A DNA stretch of 25,838 nt from a virus (IMGVR_UViG_3300017782_004476:1-25838); one strand, 5' to 3'. Positions 4,851 through 14,456 are shown, numbered from the stretch's first letter. A program made the numbers and translations. Notes: generated from the sequence alone by a model not told the origin.

Positions 4851-5486
4851 ATGAGTTTTGAAGCTATGGCTTGGGCGGCAAAAGCAGATTGCCGCTCCAG
4901 CCTCAATAAGCTTGTCCTAATGATGCTTGCAAATTATGCGGATGAGGACCACACCGCCTACCCATCATATCGAAAGCTAGCAGAGCTTTGCCTTTGCAAT
5001 GAGCGCACGGTGATGCGGGGCATTAAATCCCTTGAGGCTTTGGACCTAATCAGGACGAGCGCGAGATTTTCCAAGAGCGGAAAGCAAACCAGTAACAATT
5101 TTCATCTATTGGTTAGGGGTGACATATCCGACAGGGTGAGGGTGACAAATAATGCACCCAATACTATCAGAGATATACAAGTTAAACCTATCAATAATAA
5201 GGGTGACAAAAAGAACGCCCCATATCCACAAGATTTCGAGCAATGGTGGAAGGCTTACCCGCGCAGTGATGGATCAAAGAAGAAAGCCTTTGACCTATGG
5301 AAATCGGCGGTTAAAAAAATAAACAGAGAAGAGCTTTTGCACCTTACGGTACGGTTTGCAAATGCTGTCAAGGGAAGTAAGTTTATCCCACACGCTACGA
5401 CATGGCTAAATCAGGATCGTTGGGAGACTGTTGGAGCTATGAACACACACACCACACGAAGCAATAGAAACCAGTTAGCAGGATAA
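4851..5486 (+). CDS. winged-helix phage replication protein (O-like)
   Basis: This is a 211-residue protein. Residues about 1-90 form the winged-helix domain common to phage replication initiators (SSLNKLVLMMLANYADED, then YPSYRKLAELC, ERTVMRGIKSLEALDLI). A linker is followed by a C-terminal module (about 130-200) with FEQWWKAYPR and a WLNQDRWE ending, also seen in phage replication proteins that load helicase. The start at 4851 has GGAG eight bases before it; an earlier ATG in frame lacks one. It lies four bases before the primase-helicase gene, so a loader or initiator role for that helicase is likely. Confidence 0.85.
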   Translation: MSFEAMAWAAKADCRSSLNKLVLMMLANYADEDHTAYPSYRKLAELCLCNERTVMRGIKSLEALDLIRTSARFSKSGKQTSNNFHLLVRGDISDRVRVTNNAPNTIRDIQVKPINNKGDKKNAPYPQDFEQWWKAYPRSDGSKKKAFDLWKSAVKKINREELLHLTVRFANAVKGSKFIPHATTWLNQDRWETVGAMNTHTTRSNRNQLAG

Positions 5487-7643: not shown

Positions 7644-8135
7644 TTACCTTAGCACGGAGCTTCTGGCAAGGCTGGGGGCGCGGTATCGTTTCGGGGTATA
7701 TCCAACCGTCCTAACCTTTAAGCTCTCCTTAAGCGCCCTCTCAAGGTCGCTGTGATCTAATCCGCAATCGGTGTAACCTTCATAGATCCCGTCATAGTAA
7801 AACTTGGAAGGTCTGCCTATGTCGTGGCCGTTCATAACATAGGCCATGATCCAGTCCCCCGTTTCCTTGCCGTCCTTAATGATCTTCCAGTATTGCTTTC
7901 TGTATAGGCGGGGATAGCCCTCATAAATGTCTAGCGATTTCTCGCAAGCCTCTGTTATGTTCCATAGCATCACTTGGACCTGATCCCCCTTTGATGGGAT
8001 GATGTCGGCCACGCCCTTAAACACTAGCTTATAGTCTGGTAGGACCATTGCCTTGTGTATGGTTGCGGCGGGGCAACGGTAGGACATCTGATCCTTGTTG
8101 AGGTTCGAGCCATAGGCGGCATAGTAAATGTTCAT
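7644..8135 (-). CDS. gamma-glutamylcyclotransferase/AIG2-like protein
   Basis: This is a 163-residue protein of the GGCT/AIG2 fold. The N-terminal YAAYGSNL (residues 5-12) is the family's substrate-binding loop, and IYEGYPRLYRK near residue 75 holds the glutamate expected at the catalytic position. Such enzymes release gamma-glutamyl groups as 5-oxoproline or cleave gamma-glutamylamines. It follows an amidoligase gene on the same strand, 44 bases away, with AAAGGAAA before its ATG. Amidoligase and GGCT genes are known to co-occur, one making and the other breaking amide links. The substrate here is unknown. Confidence 0.85.
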   Translation of the reverse strand: MNIYYAAYGSNLNKDQMSYRCPAATIHKAMVLPDYKLVFKGVADIIPSKGDQVQVMLWNITEACEKSLDIYEGYPRLYRKQYWKIIKDGKETGDWIMAYVMNGHDIGRPSKFYYDGIYEGYTDCGLDHSDLERALKESLKVRTVGYTPKRYRAPSLARSSVLR

Positions 8136-8179: not shown

Positions 8180-9265
8180 TTACGCCGCCGCCCGTTGTGA
8201 AGTTGTCGATAGGCTAGTCACCCGCGCCGCGACATATGCCGCGACCTCGGGGCGAATGCCGCGCATCCAAGTGTCTGATGCGTTGCCCGTTAAGCTTTCC
8301 ACTAATTGTGAAAACTCGGTGGTAAATGTTGGACCCGCTTGGCGAGTGCGCCGTGCCGCCGTTGGATGGCAAGCGCCTTGAGCATAGAAGCGGAACATAT
8401 CTTGACCTGATACGGTCAAGACCAATTCGCCACTAGCGTTATAGATTTTCCAATTACGGCCTGACGGCTTGCATTCGAAACCGTTATTCTCAAAGATTTC
8501 GCGGATTTCGGCAAACGCGCGAGCGGAGCCTTGGCGACGATAATCGACGATGTTGGCGGCTGATCCGTTAGAGGTGGCGGCGATTTGTGACGCATCGCAA
8601 AAATCGGACATAAGCAAAACCCAATTTTTGATTTTCTCAAAATCGGTGGTTCCGCTATGTTGGCGAAACTCAATAGAGCCGTAGCGAGACAATGGCACAA
8701 GGTTTACCTTGCGGTAACGATTGCCGCCGCCACAACGCGACATCTCACGGAGCGAACCCGTGTGACCCGCAACGTCACGGAGAAAGGACGTTTCGCGGCT
8801 GATGTTGGCGCACCAGTTCGAGTTGCGGCGGCTGCGAGGCATCATGCTATCGAAACCATCTTCGAATGTAGCATAACGCTTTACGATATTTTTGATCTGG
8901 CGAGTAGTACAATTTGACCATGATAGGTGCAAATGCAATCCACACTTGATATTGATTTTAACGTCTGGGTGAGCGTTAAGAGCGGCACAAATTTTGAACA
9001 ATTCGTCAAGACCTGATTGACCTTGAAGAACGGGAGAAACAATCTCGCCACCAATCGCGTTTACATCGCGGTAGCTAATGCGTTCACTTACCGAGCTATC
9101 GGTAACGATCTTCCAATAAGAGCGAGTATTGTGGTTGTAACCTTCACGAGCAACAACGATGCCCGTTCCTTGCAATTCGCGTTGCATAGTGGTTTCGACT
9201 TGATCAAGCCACGCACCCGCGAACTCGATTTCTACTCCAAACTTTTTATTTTCAAATCCAAACAT
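8180..9265 (-). CDS. amidoligase (glutamine synthetase-like fold)
   Basis: This is a 361-residue protein of the amidoligase_2 family, ATP-dependent enzymes that form amide bonds. Motifs in order: FGVEIEF (residues 9-15), GGEIVSPVL, CGLHLHLS and SIEFRQHSGT, which carry the Glu, His and Arg residues of the ATP/metal site. The C-terminal 120 residues are less conserved. The ATG at 9265 has GGAGAAACGATC before it; the open frame extends upstream only through the promoter. All 31 arginine codons are CGN, unlike most neighbours. It is driven by the dual-palindrome promoter at 9312-9343 and pairs with the GGCT-like gene after it. Confidence 0.88.
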   Translation of the reverse strand: MFGFENKKFGVEIEFAGAWLDQVETTMQRELQGTGIVVAREGYNHNTRSYWKIVTDSSVSERISYRDVNAIGGEIVSPVLQGQSGLDELFKICAALNAHPDVKINIKCGLHLHLSWSNCTTRQIKNIVKRYATFEDGFDSMMPRSRRNSNWCANISRETSFLRDVAGHTGSLREMSRCGGGNRYRKVNLVPLSRYGSIEFRQHSGTTDFEKIKNWVLLMSDFCDASQIAATSNGSAANIVDYRRQGSARAFAEIREIFENNGFECKPSGRNWKIYNASGELVLTVSGQDMFRFYAQGACHPTAARRTRQAGPTFTTEFSQLVESLTGNASDTWMRGIRPEVAAYVAARVTSLSTTSQRAAA

Positions 9266-9311
9266 GATCGTTTCTCCGTTGTTTGAGAGCGCCAACCCTC
9301 GTTTCCATATA

Positions 9312-9343
9312 CCCAATATGGGGTATCTGTTGACAAACGTCAA
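9312..9343 (-). promoter_or_regulatory. dual-palindrome promoter, copy 2
   Basis: On the minus strand TTGACG (9343-9338) and CATATT (9320-9315) are 17 bp apart, exactly as in copy 1. The palindromes are TTGAC-AAAC-GTCAA (9330-9343) and CCCA-ATA-TGGG (within 9312-9323). An A-tract (9354-9361) lies upstream. It reads toward the amidoligase start at 9265. A rightward promoter begins about 27 bp away on the other strand. Confidence 0.8.
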
Positions 9344-9369
9344 CCCCCTACAGGAAAAAAAATAGCGTT

Positions 9370-9418
9370 TTGACAAAAAAAATTTATTCGGCTAGTTTAA
9401 AACTATCCCGATTTGGGG
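9370..9418 (+). promoter_or_regulatory. candidate rightward promoter with CCCG-ATTT-GGGG site
   Basis: TTGACA (9370-9375) and TAGTTT (9393-9398) are 17 bp apart and point to the ParB-like gene at 9434. The -35 is good and the -10 weak. CCCG-ATTT-GGGG (9407-9418) follows the expected transcript start and resembles the operator arms elsewhere. Back-to-back placement with the amidoligase promoter suggests joint control. Confidence 0.5.
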
Positions 9419-9433
9419 CTAAGAGGTGGAAAT

Positions 9434-10009
9434 ATGAAAGAAAATTGGCCAGCTAAAGAGATCGTGCAGCGCAATGTTGCAGAGCTTATTCCTTACGACA
9501 GGAACCCAAAGGATCACCCAGAGAGCCAAGTTGAGCAGATAGCCAACAGCATCCGTCAGTGGGGTTGGACAATGCCGATCTTGATAGATGAGGGGGGCAA
9601 CGTCATTGCGGGACACGGGCGCTTGTATGCGGCGCAGAGCCTCGAAATTGAGGAAGTGCCTTGCCTTATCGCGGAAGGGTGGAGCGATGAGCAACGCCGC
9701 GCTTATGTGATTGCAGACAACAAAATTGCAGAAAATGGAAACTGGAATCTATCCACATATTTTGAGGAATTGCAGGGCTTAGAGGGTACTGGATTTGATC
9801 TTAGCTTGATGGGGATAGATGGGGATTTGTCTTTCGCAACCTATCAGCCAAACCTTGAGCCAGTCCTAAAGGCAAATGATGTTTCTGGTACAGACATTGA
9901 AAGAGCGGCGGACCGTCAAATGGGGCAGATAGAGAGCTTAGTCAGGAATCAGAGCGACAATGCCCAAGAGGTAATTTGCCCTCACTGCTCGCAGACGTTT
10001 TCGATATGA
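9434..10009 (+). CDS. ParB/Srx-like domain protein with C-terminal zinc ribbon
   Basis: This is a 191-residue protein. Residues about 10-105 are a ParB N-terminal-like domain with IPYDRNPKDHPESQVEQIA, GWTMPILIDEGGNVIAGHGR and YVIADNKIAENGNWN. This version is the one usually joined to a DNA methyltransferase, but no methylase follows. The C terminus ends CPHCSQTFSI, a partial zinc-ribbon knuckle. Such domains bind DNA and in some relatives hydrolyse CTP or cut DNA. It leads a plus-strand cassette with a glycosyltransferase overlapping its stop (ATGA). The ATG at 9434 has AGAGGTGG before it. Confidence 0.85.
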   Translation: MKENWPAKEIVQRNVAELIPYDRNPKDHPESQVEQIANSIRQWGWTMPILIDEGGNVIAGHGRLYAAQSLEIEEVPCLIAEGWSDEQRRAYVIADNKIAENGNWNLSTYFEELQGLEGTGFDLSLMGIDGDLSFATYQPNLEPVLKANDVSGTDIERAADRQMGQIESLVRNQSDNAQEVICPHCSQTFSI

Positions 10010-10554
10010 GGATTATTATTAGGGCAGTCGAAGAGCGCGGAGAGTTTATCGACTATCTTAAAAAATATCTTCCAGAAGCAGAGTGGTGCTTTGATGAGCA
10101 GAGAGATGCTATGCACACCTTTATCAAAGGCATGAGAATGGCGGGAGATGACCCCTGCATTCATATGGAAGATGACATAATTCTTACAAAAAACTTCACG
10201 CAAAAGGCTCTGGCAGTCATAACGCAAAAACCTTTCAATCTTATTCAGTTCTTTTCCATGAGGAAAAAGGATCTAACAGAAGGATCTCGATGGGATAATA
10301 AGTTTATGATGAACCAGTGCCATTATAACCCGCCAAGATATTCGAACTTAATAGCCGATTTCTGGGAGCGTTGGCCTAAGAGGATAGCAGACCCGACTGG
10401 CTACGATCTTATGATGCAAGAGTTTCTAAGGGAGCGAAAAGAAAAGTACTGGATACATACCCCTTCCTTGGTAGATCACAGGGTAGCAAAAAGCATGATT
10501 GATCCTCGGCGGTCATCTAAGCGGCAGTCATTAACTTTTGAGGATGCAGTATGA
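10006..10554 (+). CDS. phage glycosyltransferase-like protein (GT-A type)
   Basis: This is a 182-residue protein. CIHMEDDIIL (about residues 46-55) supplies an acidic DxD-like metal and nucleotide-sugar motif. QFFSMRKKDLTEGSR and a C-terminal HTPSLVDHRVAKSMI with SSKR complete a pattern seen in small phage and LPS-type glycosyltransferases. It probably transfers a sugar from a nucleotide-sugar to an acceptor that is not evident. The next gene is a UDP-glucose 4-epimerase, so UDP-galactose or UDP-glucose is a likely donor. The ATG at 10006 overlaps the previous stop by four bases; the next gene overlaps in the same way. Confidence 0.7.
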   Translation: MRIIIRAVEERGEFIDYLKKYLPEAEWCFDEQRDAMHTFIKGMRMAGDDPCIHMEDDIILTKNFTQKALAVITQKPFNLIQFFSMRKKDLTEGSRWDNKFMMNQCHYNPPRYSNLIADFWERWPKRIADPTGYDLMMQEFLRERKEKYWIHTPSLVDHRVAKSMIDPRRSSKRQSLTFEDAV

Positions 10555-11516
10555 AATATCTAGTTACTGGTGGGTGCGGATATATCGGGGCTTGTATTGC
10601 CGCCGCTCTTCTTAATGACAGGCATTCGGTTGATATATTGGACTGGATGAGCAACGGATCAAACGAAACAAACTATACTCTGACCAGATTGGGCGCTCGC
10701 ATTTTTACGATGGATTTTAATGATGTTCAGATTCAGGATATATTCGAAGAAAATAGATATGACGCCGTTATACACTGCGCAGCATTTATAGAAGTTGAGC
10801 AAAGCATTAGCGAAGCCCCTGACTATTATTACAACAATGCCGTCAAAACCGCTGCATTCGCGGATATATGCTCTGAGTATGGCGTCAAGCATTTTATATT
10901 TTCCTCTACTGCCGCAGTCTACGATCCTCAACCAGACCTATTAAACGAGGCGGATATTTGCAGACCTCAAAACCCTTACGGGTTGAGCAAGTATATGGCG
11001 GAGCAAGCTTTAGAGCTTAACTCAAGGAGTGAGCCGCACAATGGAATGAAAACAATCTGTTTTAGATATTTTAATGTTGCGGGTGCTGATGTTGATAATT
11101 TTATCGGAGAGGATAGGAAGCACGAAACCCACCTAATACCGCTTGCGCTTAAAGCTAAGAGAGCAGGGCGTAACGTGTGGATATTTGGGAAGGATTACCC
11201 AACTAGTGACGGAACCTGCATCAGGGACTTTGTGGATGTTCGAGATATAGTCGACGCTCATATGTTAGCCTTGAGGTATAACAAAAAGAACTTCGACGTT
11301 TTTAACCTTGGGTCTGGTCGAGGCTACACTGTTTTTGATGTTGTGAAGGCTTGCAAGACAGACTTTAAATTTTCGGAGCGTAGGAGCGGAGATCCCGCGT
11401 TTTTAGTCGCTGATATATCTAAAGCAAAAAAAGTTTTGAAATGGGAGCCAAGGCGGACCCTTTTAGATATGGTCAATAGTGCAGAAGAATTTATGGAGCT
11501 TAAAGATGGATGTTAA
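10551..11516 (+). CDS. galE: UDP-glucose 4-epimerase-like (extended SDR)
   Basis: This is a 321-residue NAD-dependent sugar epimerase. It shows the nucleotide-binding GGCGYIG (7-13), the catalytic FSSTAAVY (117-124) with the YGLSK motif (Y143, K147), then CFRYFNVAGAD and TCIRDFVDVRDIVDAH, all typical of GalE. It interconverts UDP-glucose and UDP-galactose, or a close substrate. Length is close to the family's usual 330-340. It overlaps the glycosyltransferase by four bases (ATGA) and the next gene by 11, so it serves the same pathway. Arginine codons are mixed, including AGA and AGG. Confidence 0.9.
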   Translation: MKYLVTGGCGYIGACIAAALLNDRHSVDILDWMSNGSNETNYTLTRLGARIFTMDFNDVQIQDIFEENRYDAVIHCAAFIEVEQSISEAPDYYYNNAVKTAAFADICSEYGVKHFIFSSTAAVYDPQPDLLNEADICRPQNPYGLSKYMAEQALELNSRSEPHNGMKTICFRYFNVAGADVDNFIGEDRKHETHLIPLALKAKRAGRNVWIFGKDYPTSDGTCIRDFVDVRDIVDAHMLALRYNKKNFDVFNLGSGRGYTVFDVVKACKTDFKFSERRSGDPAFLVADISKAKKVLKWEPRRTLLDMVNSAEEFMELKDGC

Positions 11517-12036
11517 ATGGGATATTAAACTAAGACCAGATCAACGCAGAAATCCAGTTATGTTTACAAAGCATTTGGAGATAGGCGAAGAGATTCACTA
11601 CCCGACCAGTGAAGAACTGCGGGCAGTCATGGGTATCAAAGAGGGCCATAAAGGCAAGCGATTGCAGACTTGGGGTAGGGCGAAGGATGCAAAAGGTAAG
11701 ACTGTTGTAGAGCATGACCCGCACTGGCTTGCCGTCAAGAACGGAACGCCACTGCATGTTGATCCTAGATACCCCAGATATTCGCATCAGTTAAAGATTA
11801 GGGTAGATCCGCCCACTTATGTCCACGGCATAGATAAGAGCCAGCTTATTCTAAAGCGCGGTACGTTCTACATTCTAGACACACACTCGCCTCACCAAGT
11901 GGTTACTGGTAGCGGCGAGCTTTGGAACGTGACGGCTTCAATTGACAGCCACAGCCTTTTAAATCCCAATCAGGCCGTCGAGGTATTGATGAACTACTGC
12001 TTGAATACAGACTTTATGACGGGAAATCCTAAGTGA
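11506..12036 (+). CDS. putative Fe(II)/2-oxoglutarate-type oxygenase
   Basis: This is a 176-residue protein. A beta-rich core contains an HxD (H84, D86 in PLHVDPRYPRYSHQLKI), then THSPHQVV with H127 and H130 about 45 residues later. This is the HxD...H pattern and spacing of the double-stranded beta-helix oxygenases. The usual later Arg or Lys for 2-oxoglutarate is not clear, and a cupin with another role remains possible. It starts at an ATG (11506) with GGAG before it, overlapping the epimerase by 11 bases. Next to a glycosyltransferase it could supply the hydroxyl that is then glycosylated, but this is inference. Confidence 0.45.
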   Translation: MDVKWDIKLRPDQRRNPVMFTKHLEIGEEIHYPTSEELRAVMGIKEGHKGKRLQTWGRAKDAKGKTVVEHDPHWLAVKNGTPLHVDPRYPRYSHQLKIRVDPPTYVHGIDKSQLILKRGTFYILDTHSPHQVVTGSGELWNVTASIDSHSLLNPNQAVEVLMNYCLNTDFMTGNPK

Positions 12037-13199
12037 AAAAGATCTATCTGCCAGAAGATGTTTACGAAGCGGCGCTCAATCGGATGCGGTGGCTGTTCGA
12101 TGAATTTAAGAACGTGGTCATTTCATCGTCTGGCGGTAAGGATAGCACGATCATAATGCAGCTTGCGCTTAAGGTAGCAGAAGAGAAAAACCGACTGCCG
12201 ATTAAGATGGTGTTCTTGGATCAAGAGGCGGAATGGCAAAGCACTATTGATTATCTTCGTAAGGCTATGGCGGACCCACGCATTGAGCCTGTTTGGATAC
12301 AGTGCCCCTTTAAGCTCTTTAACACTACGTCAATCAAGGAGCCTTGGCTGATGTGTTGGAAAGAGGGCGATAAGTGGATGAGGGAGAAGGAGCCTTATGC
12401 GATAAAGGACAATGTATTCGGCACAGACCGATTCAGAGACGTTTTTACGCACGTTCTAGATTACTTGCACCCCAACGAACCCGCCTGTTTTCTCGCGGGT
12501 GTACGGGCAGAAGAAAGCCCCAGACGCGCTATCGCTATGACGGCAGATCTAACCTACAAGCACATAACCTACGGCAAGCAGCTAAACAAAAAGAAAGACC
12601 ACTATACGTTCTATCCGATCTATGACTGGTCGCTATCGGATGTTTGGAGGGCCATAAGCGGCCATAAGTGGACATATAACACCCTTTACGACAAGCTTTA
12701 TAGATTTGGCATAGCGCCAAAGGACATGAGGGTTTCCAACCTACACCATGAAACGGCGGTTCATAACCTGTTTTTCTTGCATGAGATCGAACCAGAGACA
12801 TGGGACAAGCTCACAAACAGGCTCGCGGGCATTCATACAACCAAGCATATCAAGAAAGAGGAGATGATGAACGTAGCTTCTCTGCCTTATATGTTCCGAG
12901 ACTGGCCCGAATATAGAGATTACCTAACAGACAAGCTTATAAGCATTGAGCACAACAGGCTAAAGTTTCACCGCAAGTGGCATAGGATGGCTATGCTGTA
13001 CGACGAAATAGCCAAGCCCGAAGAGATGTATAAAAAGCAGATCAAAGCAATCTTACAGAACGATTGGGAATATGAGCAGTTAAAGAATTGGGAAGAAAGC
13101 CCACCTGTCATTGCATACCGAAAGTGGAAAAAGGGAACGCTCTGGATTGATGATCCGAAAGACCCAAATCTCAAGCTAATCAAGGATAAATACAAATGA
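12033..13199 (+). CDS. PAPS reductase-like protein, IbrA type (DUF3440)
   Basis: This is a 388-residue protein of the PP-loop ATP-pyrophosphatase superfamily. SGGKDS is at 33-38. Downstream are VFLDQEAEWQSTIDYL, CFLAGVRAEESPRR and FYPIYDWSLSDVWRAI, which are characteristic of the PAPS-reductase-like enzymes related to IbrA, with DndC more distant. These bind an adenylate and act in sulphur or nucleotide chemistry; for IbrA the reaction is not established. It starts with GTG (GTGA overlap with the previous stop) and overlaps the ParB-like gene after it, matching the IbrA-IbrB gene order. Confidence 0.85.
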   Translation: MKKIYLPEDVYEAALNRMRWLFDEFKNVVISSSGGKDSTIIMQLALKVAEEKNRLPIKMVFLDQEAEWQSTIDYLRKAMADPRIEPVWIQCPFKLFNTTSIKEPWLMCWKEGDKWMREKEPYAIKDNVFGTDRFRDVFTHVLDYLHPNEPACFLAGVRAEESPRRAIAMTADLTYKHITYGKQLNKKKDHYTFYPIYDWSLSDVWRAISGHKWTYNTLYDKLYRFGIAPKDMRVSNLHHETAVHNLFFLHEIEPETWDKLTNRLAGIHTTKHIKKEEMMNVASLPYMFRDWPEYRDYLTDKLISIEHNRLKFHRKWHRMAMLYDEIAKPEEMYKKQIKAILQNDWEYEQLKNWEESPPVIAYRKWKKGTLWIDDPKDPNLKLIKDKYK

Positions 13200-13900
13200 A
13201 CGTAAAGGCGGATACAACGGACGTAATGGAAAGGCTAAAGCATTCCATCGTTGAAGATTTGCGACTGTTTGACGATCAAGACAGGATTGACTTTCTCAAT
13301 GAGCTTAAGATCTTCCTGCATGAGATAAGCCCGTTAGCGGCGCAGCCCGTTGATCTAGTAGAATGGGTGGACGTTGATAAGGTGGAAGCCAACAACTACA
13401 ACCCGAACTCTGTTGCCTCTAAAGAGATGGAGCTGCTACACACTTCGATCAAACACGATGGATACACGCAGCCCGTTGTGACGATCCACGATCAGGAAAA
13501 CGACAAATATATAATCATAGACGGTTTCCATAGATATTTTACTTGCAAGAATGCGGCGGACATAAGGGCGGCTAATATGGGGCGCTTGCCCGTGGTCGTA
13601 TTGCAGAAAGACATGAACGAGAGAATGGCCGCAACGGTTCGACATAATAGGGCTAGGGGATCACACTCTGTAAATGGCATGTCAAATATGGTATTTAAGA
13701 TGTTAGACAACGGCTGGTTGGATCAAGACATCTGCAATCATCTAGGTATGGCGGCGGATGAACTGCTAAGATTAAAGCACGTTACAGGGTTCTCTAAGCT
13801 TTTCGAGGATGCCGAATATAGTAAGTCTTGGGTAACACGCAATCAGGTGATGCTCAAAAAAAAGTACGAGGATGAACTGAAAGAAACTGATAGAGATTGA
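13196..13900 (+). CDS. ParB-like protein, IbrB type
   Basis: This is a 234-residue protein. Residues about 55-150 hold a ParB-like domain with VEANNYNPNSVASKEMELL, DGYTQPVV, IIDGFHRYFTCK and ATVRHNRARGSHS, as in IbrB. The N-terminal part is helical and acidic. The C terminus adds a helix-turn-helix-like stretch (NGWLDQDICNHLGMAADELL) and a charged tail. It overlaps the IbrA-type gene by four bases (ATGA), a pairing seen in bacteria and phages. A second ParB-like gene lies five genes upstream. The small terminase starts eight bases after its stop. Confidence 0.85.
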   Translation: MNVKADTTDVMERLKHSIVEDLRLFDDQDRIDFLNELKIFLHEISPLAAQPVDLVEWVDVDKVEANNYNPNSVASKEMELLHTSIKHDGYTQPVVTIHDQENDKYIIIDGFHRYFTCKNAADIRAANMGRLPVVVLQKDMNERMAATVRHNRARGSHSVNGMSNMVFKMLDNGWLDQDICNHLGMAADELLRLKHVTGFSKLFEDAEYSKSWVTRNQVMLKKKYEDELKETDRD

Positions 13901-13907
13901 TAGCGAA

Positions 13908-14456
13908 ATGCCTAAGAAAATCACACCAGAGCTTGAAGTAAAGATGCGCGATGAGTTTGTCTTTGGTTATGTGGACGAAGGCGGGGAGCGCCGTTATCCA
14001 ACTATCGAAGCACTGCAACGCCGTCATGACGTTGCGATTGCCACACTAAGGCGAAAGGCCGACAAGGGAAGCTGGCAGAAAGAAAAGAACCGCCGTCAAA
14101 CGGAGATAATGCAAAAGCTCGACGCAGAGCGGCTAAATCGGCTTGTAGAGAGCGGAAAGCGTTTAGATGATACCGCGTTGCAACTTGCACAGGCCATGCT
14201 CTCCAAGGTCGGGCAAACGCTACAGGACGCATTTAGCGAACAGGTAAACTTTGAGCTAAGAACGGATGAGCTTAGAGAGCTTTCTGTTATTACGATAAAC
14301 GCGCAAAAGGTTGGAAAGCTTGCGTTAGGTCAGGCCCAAGAGATAAGCAAGGTAAGTGCAGATGTTAGCAACCCCGAAGCCTTCCGAGAAGTTATGGAGC
14401 AACTTGACGAACTTGCCACGGCAAGGTCATCACGCTACAGGCATACTATACAATGA
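13908..14456 (+). CDS. terS: terminase small subunit
   Basis: This is a 182-residue protein placed directly before the large terminase, as expected for the DNA-recognition subunit of the packaging motor. The N-terminal part has a helix-turn-helix-like stretch (YPTIEALQRRHDVAIATLRR, residues about 29-48), followed by long charged helices that suit oligomerisation (SGKRLDDTALQLAQAML). It overlaps the large subunit by about 95 bases, which is more than usual. The ribosome site is weak, and translation is probably coupled to the upstream IbrB-type gene. Confidence 0.8.
   Translation: MPKKITPELEVKMRDEFVFGYVDEGGERRYPTIEALQRRHDVAIATLRRKADKGSWQKEKNRRQTEIMQKLDAERLNRLVESGKRLDDTALQLAQAMLSKVGQTLQDAFSEQVNFELRTDELRELSVITINAQKVGKLALGQAQEISKVSADVSNPEAFREVMEQLDELATARSSRYRHTIQ

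Follow-up and report, generated by a model that had tools for sequence, protein, structure and literature searches.

What six overlapping genes placed immediately ahead of the terminase genes might do for a phage is the question raised by positions 9434-13900 of IMGVR_UViG_3300017782_004476. This IMG/VR virus record of 25,838 bases is a fragment, and its whole length is referred to here as the window. The six genes lie on the + strand, directly 5' of the terminase genes, and encode a ParB-type protein (ParB1), a glycosyltransferase (GT), a uridine diphosphate (UDP)-glucose 4-epimerase (GalE), an oxygenase-like protein, IbrA and IbrB. We propose that this operon is probably a modular, late, post-replicative cassette for hypermodification of phage DNA. 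DNA is the probable target because DNA-methyltransferase-like genes fill the same slot in relatives of the cassette, and because phage adenine DNA methyltransferases begin with a ParB1-type domain, a fusion that sits ahead of the terminase genes in ctOK67. Siting beside the packaging genes would suit late, post-replicative modification.

A preliminary description of the window had read the six genes as overlapping or abutting and running straight into the terminase, and gene calls and substitution rates bear this out. Successive genes overlap by 4, 4, 11, 4 and 4 bp, and 7 bp separate IbrB from the probable TerS gene. The ratio of nonsynonymous to synonymous substitution rates (dN/dS) against the close relative L003 is 0.019-0.034 for every cassette gene, with the terminase genes in the same range. 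All six genes are confirmed as real and under strong purifying selection.

A constant core and an exchangeable slot

Relatives were collected by three scans of IMG/VR. The oxygenase yielded 36 loci and the GT 80, while the third, IbrA-based scan gave loci unselected for GT or oxygenase. Joined and thinned to <90% IbrA identity, the scans left 89 loci with enough upstream sequence. These loci are fragments, not full genomes, and the hidden Markov models used to label their genes were built from the same loci; the counts given here are descriptive.

Across the 89 IbrA loci the core is made up of ParB, c4 (a domain of about 90 residues), IbrA and IbrB and mostly adjoins the terminase. IbrA is followed by an IbrB- or ParB-type gene in 84 loci, c4 or a c4-methyltransferase lies upstream in 64, and a recognised terminase gene follows downstream in 62. 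The c4 domain carries the motif AKTMPxxPHxY...YKYWTM...INRA (L008:935-1198 and 42 relatives) and stands alone or fused to a methyltransferase, a SET domain or an S-adenosylmethionine (SAM) decarboxylase. It has no Pfam, PHROG or NCBIfam match, and a search of 50,697 named phage records, at the limits applied, returned no relative of either c4 or the oxygenase-like protein.

Between ParB/c4 and IbrA lies a slot of changing content, which holds GTs, the oxygenase, GNAT acetyltransferases, DPPW DNA N6A/N4C-methyltransferase-like proteins, SAM decarboxylase, SET fused to c4, and class I methyltransferases. The DPPW proteins occupy the slot in 25 of the 89 loci; those tested all match the Pfam DNA methylase model, one above its cutoff (3.4e-9) and the others below it. 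The SAM decarboxylase and SET genes found there pass their Pfam cutoffs. Nearly all of the 47 IbrA-centred loci carry at least one tailoring enzyme (45 loci), distributed as GT in 23, DNA-methyltransferase-like in 21, GNAT in 18 and SAM decarboxylase in 10. Two loci close to the window on the IbrA tree (L114:2258-3378 and L115:6911-8001) have a SAM decarboxylase and a SET-c4 fusion in place of GT and oxygenase.

GT and oxygenase beside IbrA/IbrB recur in about 27-29 non-redundant loci (<90% IbrA identity), so that the grouping of these four is above chance. Relatives at roughly 40-70% identity repeat the order ParB, (c4), GT, oxygenase, IbrA, IbrB, terminase. Conservation of the gene set holds for the four, whereas the exact six are limited to close relatives, namely L003, which is complete, and L002, which begins inside GalE. 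Among the loci scanned GalE is confined to these close relatives; divergent relatives lack it, and most have a gene of about 90 amino acids between ParB and GT.

The slot enzymes turn over quickly. On an IbrA tree built by a quick method and containing many open forks, we counted 21 changes for the methyltransferase, 20 for the oxygenase, 16 each for GT and GNAT, four for SAM decarboxylase and three for terminase type. A GT accompanies the oxygenase in 29 of 30 loci, a pattern in keeping with hydroxylation followed by glycosylation, although the link is inflated by loci found through GT and falls below significance in independent pairs (median p 0.125). None of the 30 loci has a GNAT (Fisher p 1.7e-5; median p 0.031 on independent pairs). 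The GT and oxygenase, which together with the epimerase had suggested a pathway at the outset, are better described as one tailoring set among several that can be swapped on a core of IbrA, IbrB and ParB than as the whole system.

The ParB-type proteins and IbrA

ParB1 scores 26.8 bits against PF02195 (cutoff 26.3). Its residues 1-131 match the PADLOC MTase_II model (8.8e-32). The protein matches the first 131 residues of phage adenine DNA methyltransferases, with 51% identity to the enzyme of ctOK67. By sequence comparison, ParB1 is of the same family as the N-terminal part of these methyltransferases. IbrB scores 29.5 bits against PF02195 and matches PHROG 2159 (2.5e-70). The two had been called ParB-like DNA-binding proteins, a label that we tighten: both carry the ParB N-terminal (ParB/Srx) domain, by which alone they are recognised, and DNA binding is putative.

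IbrA exceeds the cutoffs of PF01507 (59.9 bits) and PF11922 (29.0 bits) and matches PHROG 2302 (2e-80); its PP-loop motif SGGKDS is intact and near-invariant. With a PP-loop ATPase domain, DUF3440 and an adjacent ParB-domain partner, the two genes form an IbrA/IbrB pair. The enzyme had been introduced as PAPS (3'-phosphoadenosine-5'-phosphosulfate)-reductase-like. It is better described as an IbrA/DUF3440 protein of the PP-loop ATP-pyrophosphatase type, and the reductase motif ECGxH is present in 0 of 147 IbrA proteins. Scores against NCBIfam CysH-type models are 26-34 bits, with cutoffs of 154-254, and no cysteine is found among the positions conserved at >= 93% in 69 IbrA proteins. We therefore dropped two assignments: a PAPS reductase (CysH) of sulfate assimilation, given the absent ECGxH and the CysH-type scores below cutoff, and a DndC-type sulfur transferase of phosphorothioation, given the absence of conserved cysteines.

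Pairs of IbrA and IbrB also occur in phages of Flavobacterium, Lactobacillus and Mycobacterium, where SNF2 or other helicases lie close by and no GT is annotated in the vicinity; the pair therefore has a life outside the cassette. In other phages IbrA adjoins SNF2 or DEAD-type helicases (L105, L109, L110, L111). The ParB partner of IbrA in phage Gaia is fused to an ectoine-synthase-like cupin, and the IbrA of Microbacterium phage Leaf (L106:5722-7137) is annotated as an adenylyltransferase.

The glycosyltransferase, GalE and the oxygenase-like protein

An AlphaFold2 (AF2) model of the GT (predicted local distance difference test, pLDDT, 95.4) has a GT-A fold. It matches mimivirus R655, itself GT-A, with a Z of 14.7 and a root-mean-square deviation (rmsd) of 3.0 over 160 residues, and collagen galactosyltransferase with a Z of 14.5. 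The fold together with a DxD-type metal motif (E55-D56-D57) and H158 assigns the protein to the GT-A class. Across 85 relatives C105 and D134 are invariant and D57 and H158 are 98% conserved. The protein belongs to no Pfam family, its match to a PHROG 'glucosyltransferase' is weak, and a sequence search of solved structures returned nothing. T4 DNA glucosyltransferases have a GT-B fold. A T4-type DNA glucosyltransferase, and with it a T4-like glucosyl-hydroxymethylcytosine, was dropped as a candidate since the top solved matches place the GT model in GT-A. GalE scores 294.2 bits against TIGR01179, above the equivalog cutoff of 262.3.

The AF2 model of the oxygenase-like protein (pLDDT 96.6) is a double-stranded beta-helix, and the HxD...H metal triad H83, D85 and H129 is invariant in 41 diverse relatives. 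Fold and triad together mark it as a probable 2-oxoglutarate oxygenase. Residue R90, near the triad in sequence, is 98% conserved, while K96 and R98 vary; R90 is a candidate for the residue that binds 2-oxoglutarate. The best structural matches are modest (Z <= 8.7) and comprise 2-oxoglutarate hydroxylases of proline, Asp/Asn and nucleoside-antibiotic pathways. Among the last, PolD and 7v4m reach a Z of about 8, which is non-specific and at the level of other oxygenases. NgTET1 (Z 7.2, rmsd 3.9, 123 aligned) is tied with many others, and no Pfam match to TET/JBP was obtained at E 0.1. Pfam, PHROG and NCBIfam yield no match for the protein itself; one relative matches PF05118 below cutoff (E 0.005). 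Searching solved structures by sequence gave noise only, and an alignment scan of bacterial genomes found no relatives. Contig L067 has two copies of the gene (4874-5422 and 8868-9644), the first of which lies outside the cassette and weakly matches the Asp/Asn beta-hydroxylase family.

The active sites proposed for both enzymes withstand the structural check, since the models keep the GT EDD...H and the oxygenase HxD...H motifs. Hydroxylation and then glycosylation is favoured by these intact motifs and by the joint occurrence of the two enzymes. As known DNA-acting types, however, the two are not supported: the oxygenase lacks a TET/JBP sequence match and the GT lacks the T4-type fold.

Comparison with known systems

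The cultured Microbacterium phage Hendrix has the same general order across its permuted genome end (gp154-158 and gp1-5), and Leaf is similar. In Hendrix a GT (gp154), a second GT, a c4-methyltransferase (gp156), a GNAT, IbrA (gp158) and three ParB-type genes precede the terminase. It differs in having the second GT, methyltransferase and acetyltransferase where the window has oxygenase and GalE, and its GT is 38% identical. Those passages of the Hendrix genome paper that were searched (PMC7302621) mention neither PAPS reductase nor the gene set nor DNA chemistry. Leaf gp153 (L106:1384-2094) has a weak match to the Stealth family.

A measured precedent is the CmoA/CmoX/CmoY system, in which phage cytosine receives a carboxymethyl handle that is then extended (5-carboxymethylcytosine; Synechococcus phage S-B43). 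The system combines a DNA methyltransferase with a modified SAM and an ATP-dependent ligase that forms AMP, and ParB-domain genes accompany it in many contigs (PMC12783734). Its likeness to the cassette family lies in the supply of modified SAM, the DNA methyltransferase, the AMP-forming ligase and the ParB-domain gene. It differs in its enzyme families, and IbrA is of another PP-loop family. Domain searches of the window cassette, itself part of a fragment, found no homologue of CmoA, C5-carboxymethyltransferase or asparagine synthetase.

In ctOK67 a ParB-adenine DNA methyltransferase fusion with a DPPY motif lies directly 5' of the terminase genes, as the cassette does; it differs in being a single methyltransferase, with no gene annotated IbrA or IbrB in the 12-kb stretch. 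The phosphorothioation enzymes DndC, BrxP and SspD share the PP-loop superfamily with IbrA and give weak matches, but IbrA is without conserved cysteines. The BREX and Dnd papers do not name IbrA, and the terms searched are absent from the MetaGPA paper.

Proposed mechanism and alternatives

If the cassette modifies DNA, its substrate would probably be phage DNA that has just been replicated and is about to be packaged, with ParB1 and IbrB guiding or assisting the action on DNA. Like other PP-loop enzymes, IbrA might use ATP for an activating adenylation, either of a base or of a group attached to it. A hydroxyl group would be installed by the oxygenase, and the GT would transfer onto it the sugar of a UDP-sugar, for which GalE would provide UDP-galactose. 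Relatives may finish instead with a methyltransferase, with a SAM decarboxylase and a methyltransferase or SET, or with an acetyltransferase, in place of oxygenase and GT. The likely benefit would be resistance to host restriction or to other defences that recognise DNA, and an arms race would be in keeping with the rapid replacement of tailoring enzymes.

More tentatively, it is possible that IbrA/IbrB, ParB and c4 constitute a widespread, unrecognised hypermodification platform, in which IbrA would join a small group, an amine or one resembling an amino acid, to the base and swappable hydroxylases and glycosyl-, acetyl- and methyltransferases would decorate the side chain; many viral 'cysH' genes would then belong to it. 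The IbrA step is modelled, by analogy, on lysidine synthase in tRNA or CmoY on phage DNA. The abstract of Iyer et al. 2013 is said to predict lysidine-like pyrimidines and modified SAM derivatives in phages, and the IbrA/IbrB/ParB core may already have been described earlier.

Several observations weigh against DNA hypermodification. The window cassette has neither a DNA-methyltransferase-like gene nor a c4 domain, and IbrA/IbrB occur in other phages without the cassette, several times beside helicases. The GT and oxygenase folds are closest to enzymes that act on proteins: the closest solved folds of the GT are protein and glycan transferases, namely collagen hydroxylysine galactosyltransferase and GnT-I, with LH3 lower, and those of the oxygenase include the proline and Asp/Asn hydroxylases. 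The TylF-like O-methyltransferase and GNAT of the slot, like GalE, would equally suit glycan decoration.

These points bear most on the main rival, decoration of a virion protein or surface glycan, which we consider rather unlikely. Here the oxygenase would hydroxylate a side chain and the GT glycosylate it with UDP-galactose provided by GalE, relatives would trim the glycan by O-methyl- and acetyltransferases, and IbrA/IbrB would be a separate neighbouring module; fast swapping would also suit antigenic or receptor change. However, the same slot is taken by DNA-methyltransferase-like, SAM-decarboxylase and SET genes, and ParB1 groups with DNA methyltransferases. The slot is bounded by ParB or c4 and by IbrA/IbrB in most loci, boundaries that a free glycan locus does not need, and fold similarity at this level leaves the acceptor unfixed. 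DNA as the substrate, the earlier suggestion, thus draws its support from the slot methyltransferases and the ParB1 family, while the solved folds nearest to the GT point elsewhere.

Much less probable is a scheme in which IbrA and IbrB are regulators and the GT and oxygenase modify the envelope of the host, for instance as a barrier to superinfection. A role in co-activating prophage gene expression is indeed given to IbrA/IbrB in the annotation of some records, and the pair occurs elsewhere without GT, but the PP-loop motif of IbrA is intact and the gene adjoins a changing enzyme set. Equally improbable is a target of RNA, a free nucleotide or a metabolite instead of polymer DNA, with the ParB proteins as nucleotide-dependent ParB/Srx kinases: IbrB has a weak resemblance to two ParB-fold serine kinases, SerK (E 6e-4) and SbnI (E 4e-3), and the oxygenase fold matches a nucleoside-antibiotic hydroxylase about as well as others, but the position before the terminase and the fusion of ParB1-type domains to DNA methyltransferases point to DNA.

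The surrounding locus

Coordinates are collected in Table 1. The probable TerS has no Pfam or PHROG match of its own, and its open reading frame and that of TerL, as called, share 101 bp (14356-14456). The closest named phage by TerL is Roseobacter phage CRP-6 (47%), from which an alphaproteobacterial host may be guessed. On the other side of the cassette, the amidoligase and gamma-glutamyl cyclotransferase-like pair shifts position in relatives and stays close to the cassette, at times between IbrB and the terminase.

Table 1. Features of the cassette and its neighbours in the window
Feature	Position	Strand	Description and basis
gamma-glutamyl cyclotransferase-like gene	7644-8135	-	beside amidoligase
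amidoligase	8180-9289	-	adjoins cassette
ParB1	9434-10009	+	ParB/Srx N-terminal domain, C-terminal CxxC pair; PF02195
GT	10006-10554	+	GT-A fold glycosyltransferase, 182 amino acids; AF2 model
GalE	10551-11516	+	UDP-glucose 4-epimerase; NCBIfam TIGR01179
oxygenase-like	11506-12036	+	176 amino acids, double-stranded beta-helix fold with HxD...H; ATG start at 11506
IbrA	12033-13199	+	GTG start; PP-loop ATP-pyrophosphatase-type, DUF3440; PF01507, PF11922, PHROG 2302
IbrB	13196-13900	+	ParB/Srx-domain partner of IbrA; PF02195, PHROG 2159
probable TerS	13908-14456	+	directly 5' of large terminase, position kept in relatives
terminase large subunit (TerL)	14356-15675	+	PF03237 and PF17289

Conclusions

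Among viral auxiliary metabolic genes, 'cysH' is reported to be one of the most widespread, and it is read as sulfur metabolism (PMC9301287), and the PHROGs label for the present IbrA family is PAPS reductase, auxiliary metabolic. Since the IbrA proteins described here are without the reductase motif, the sulfur-metabolism reading of viral 'cysH' may be wrong in part. A related cassette is present in the cultured phage Hendrix, and DNA hypermodification is therefore testable there, in a relative whose chemistry could be read directly. If true, these phages would possess a modular DNA-hypermodification platform that swaps enzymes at a locus just ahead of the terminase.

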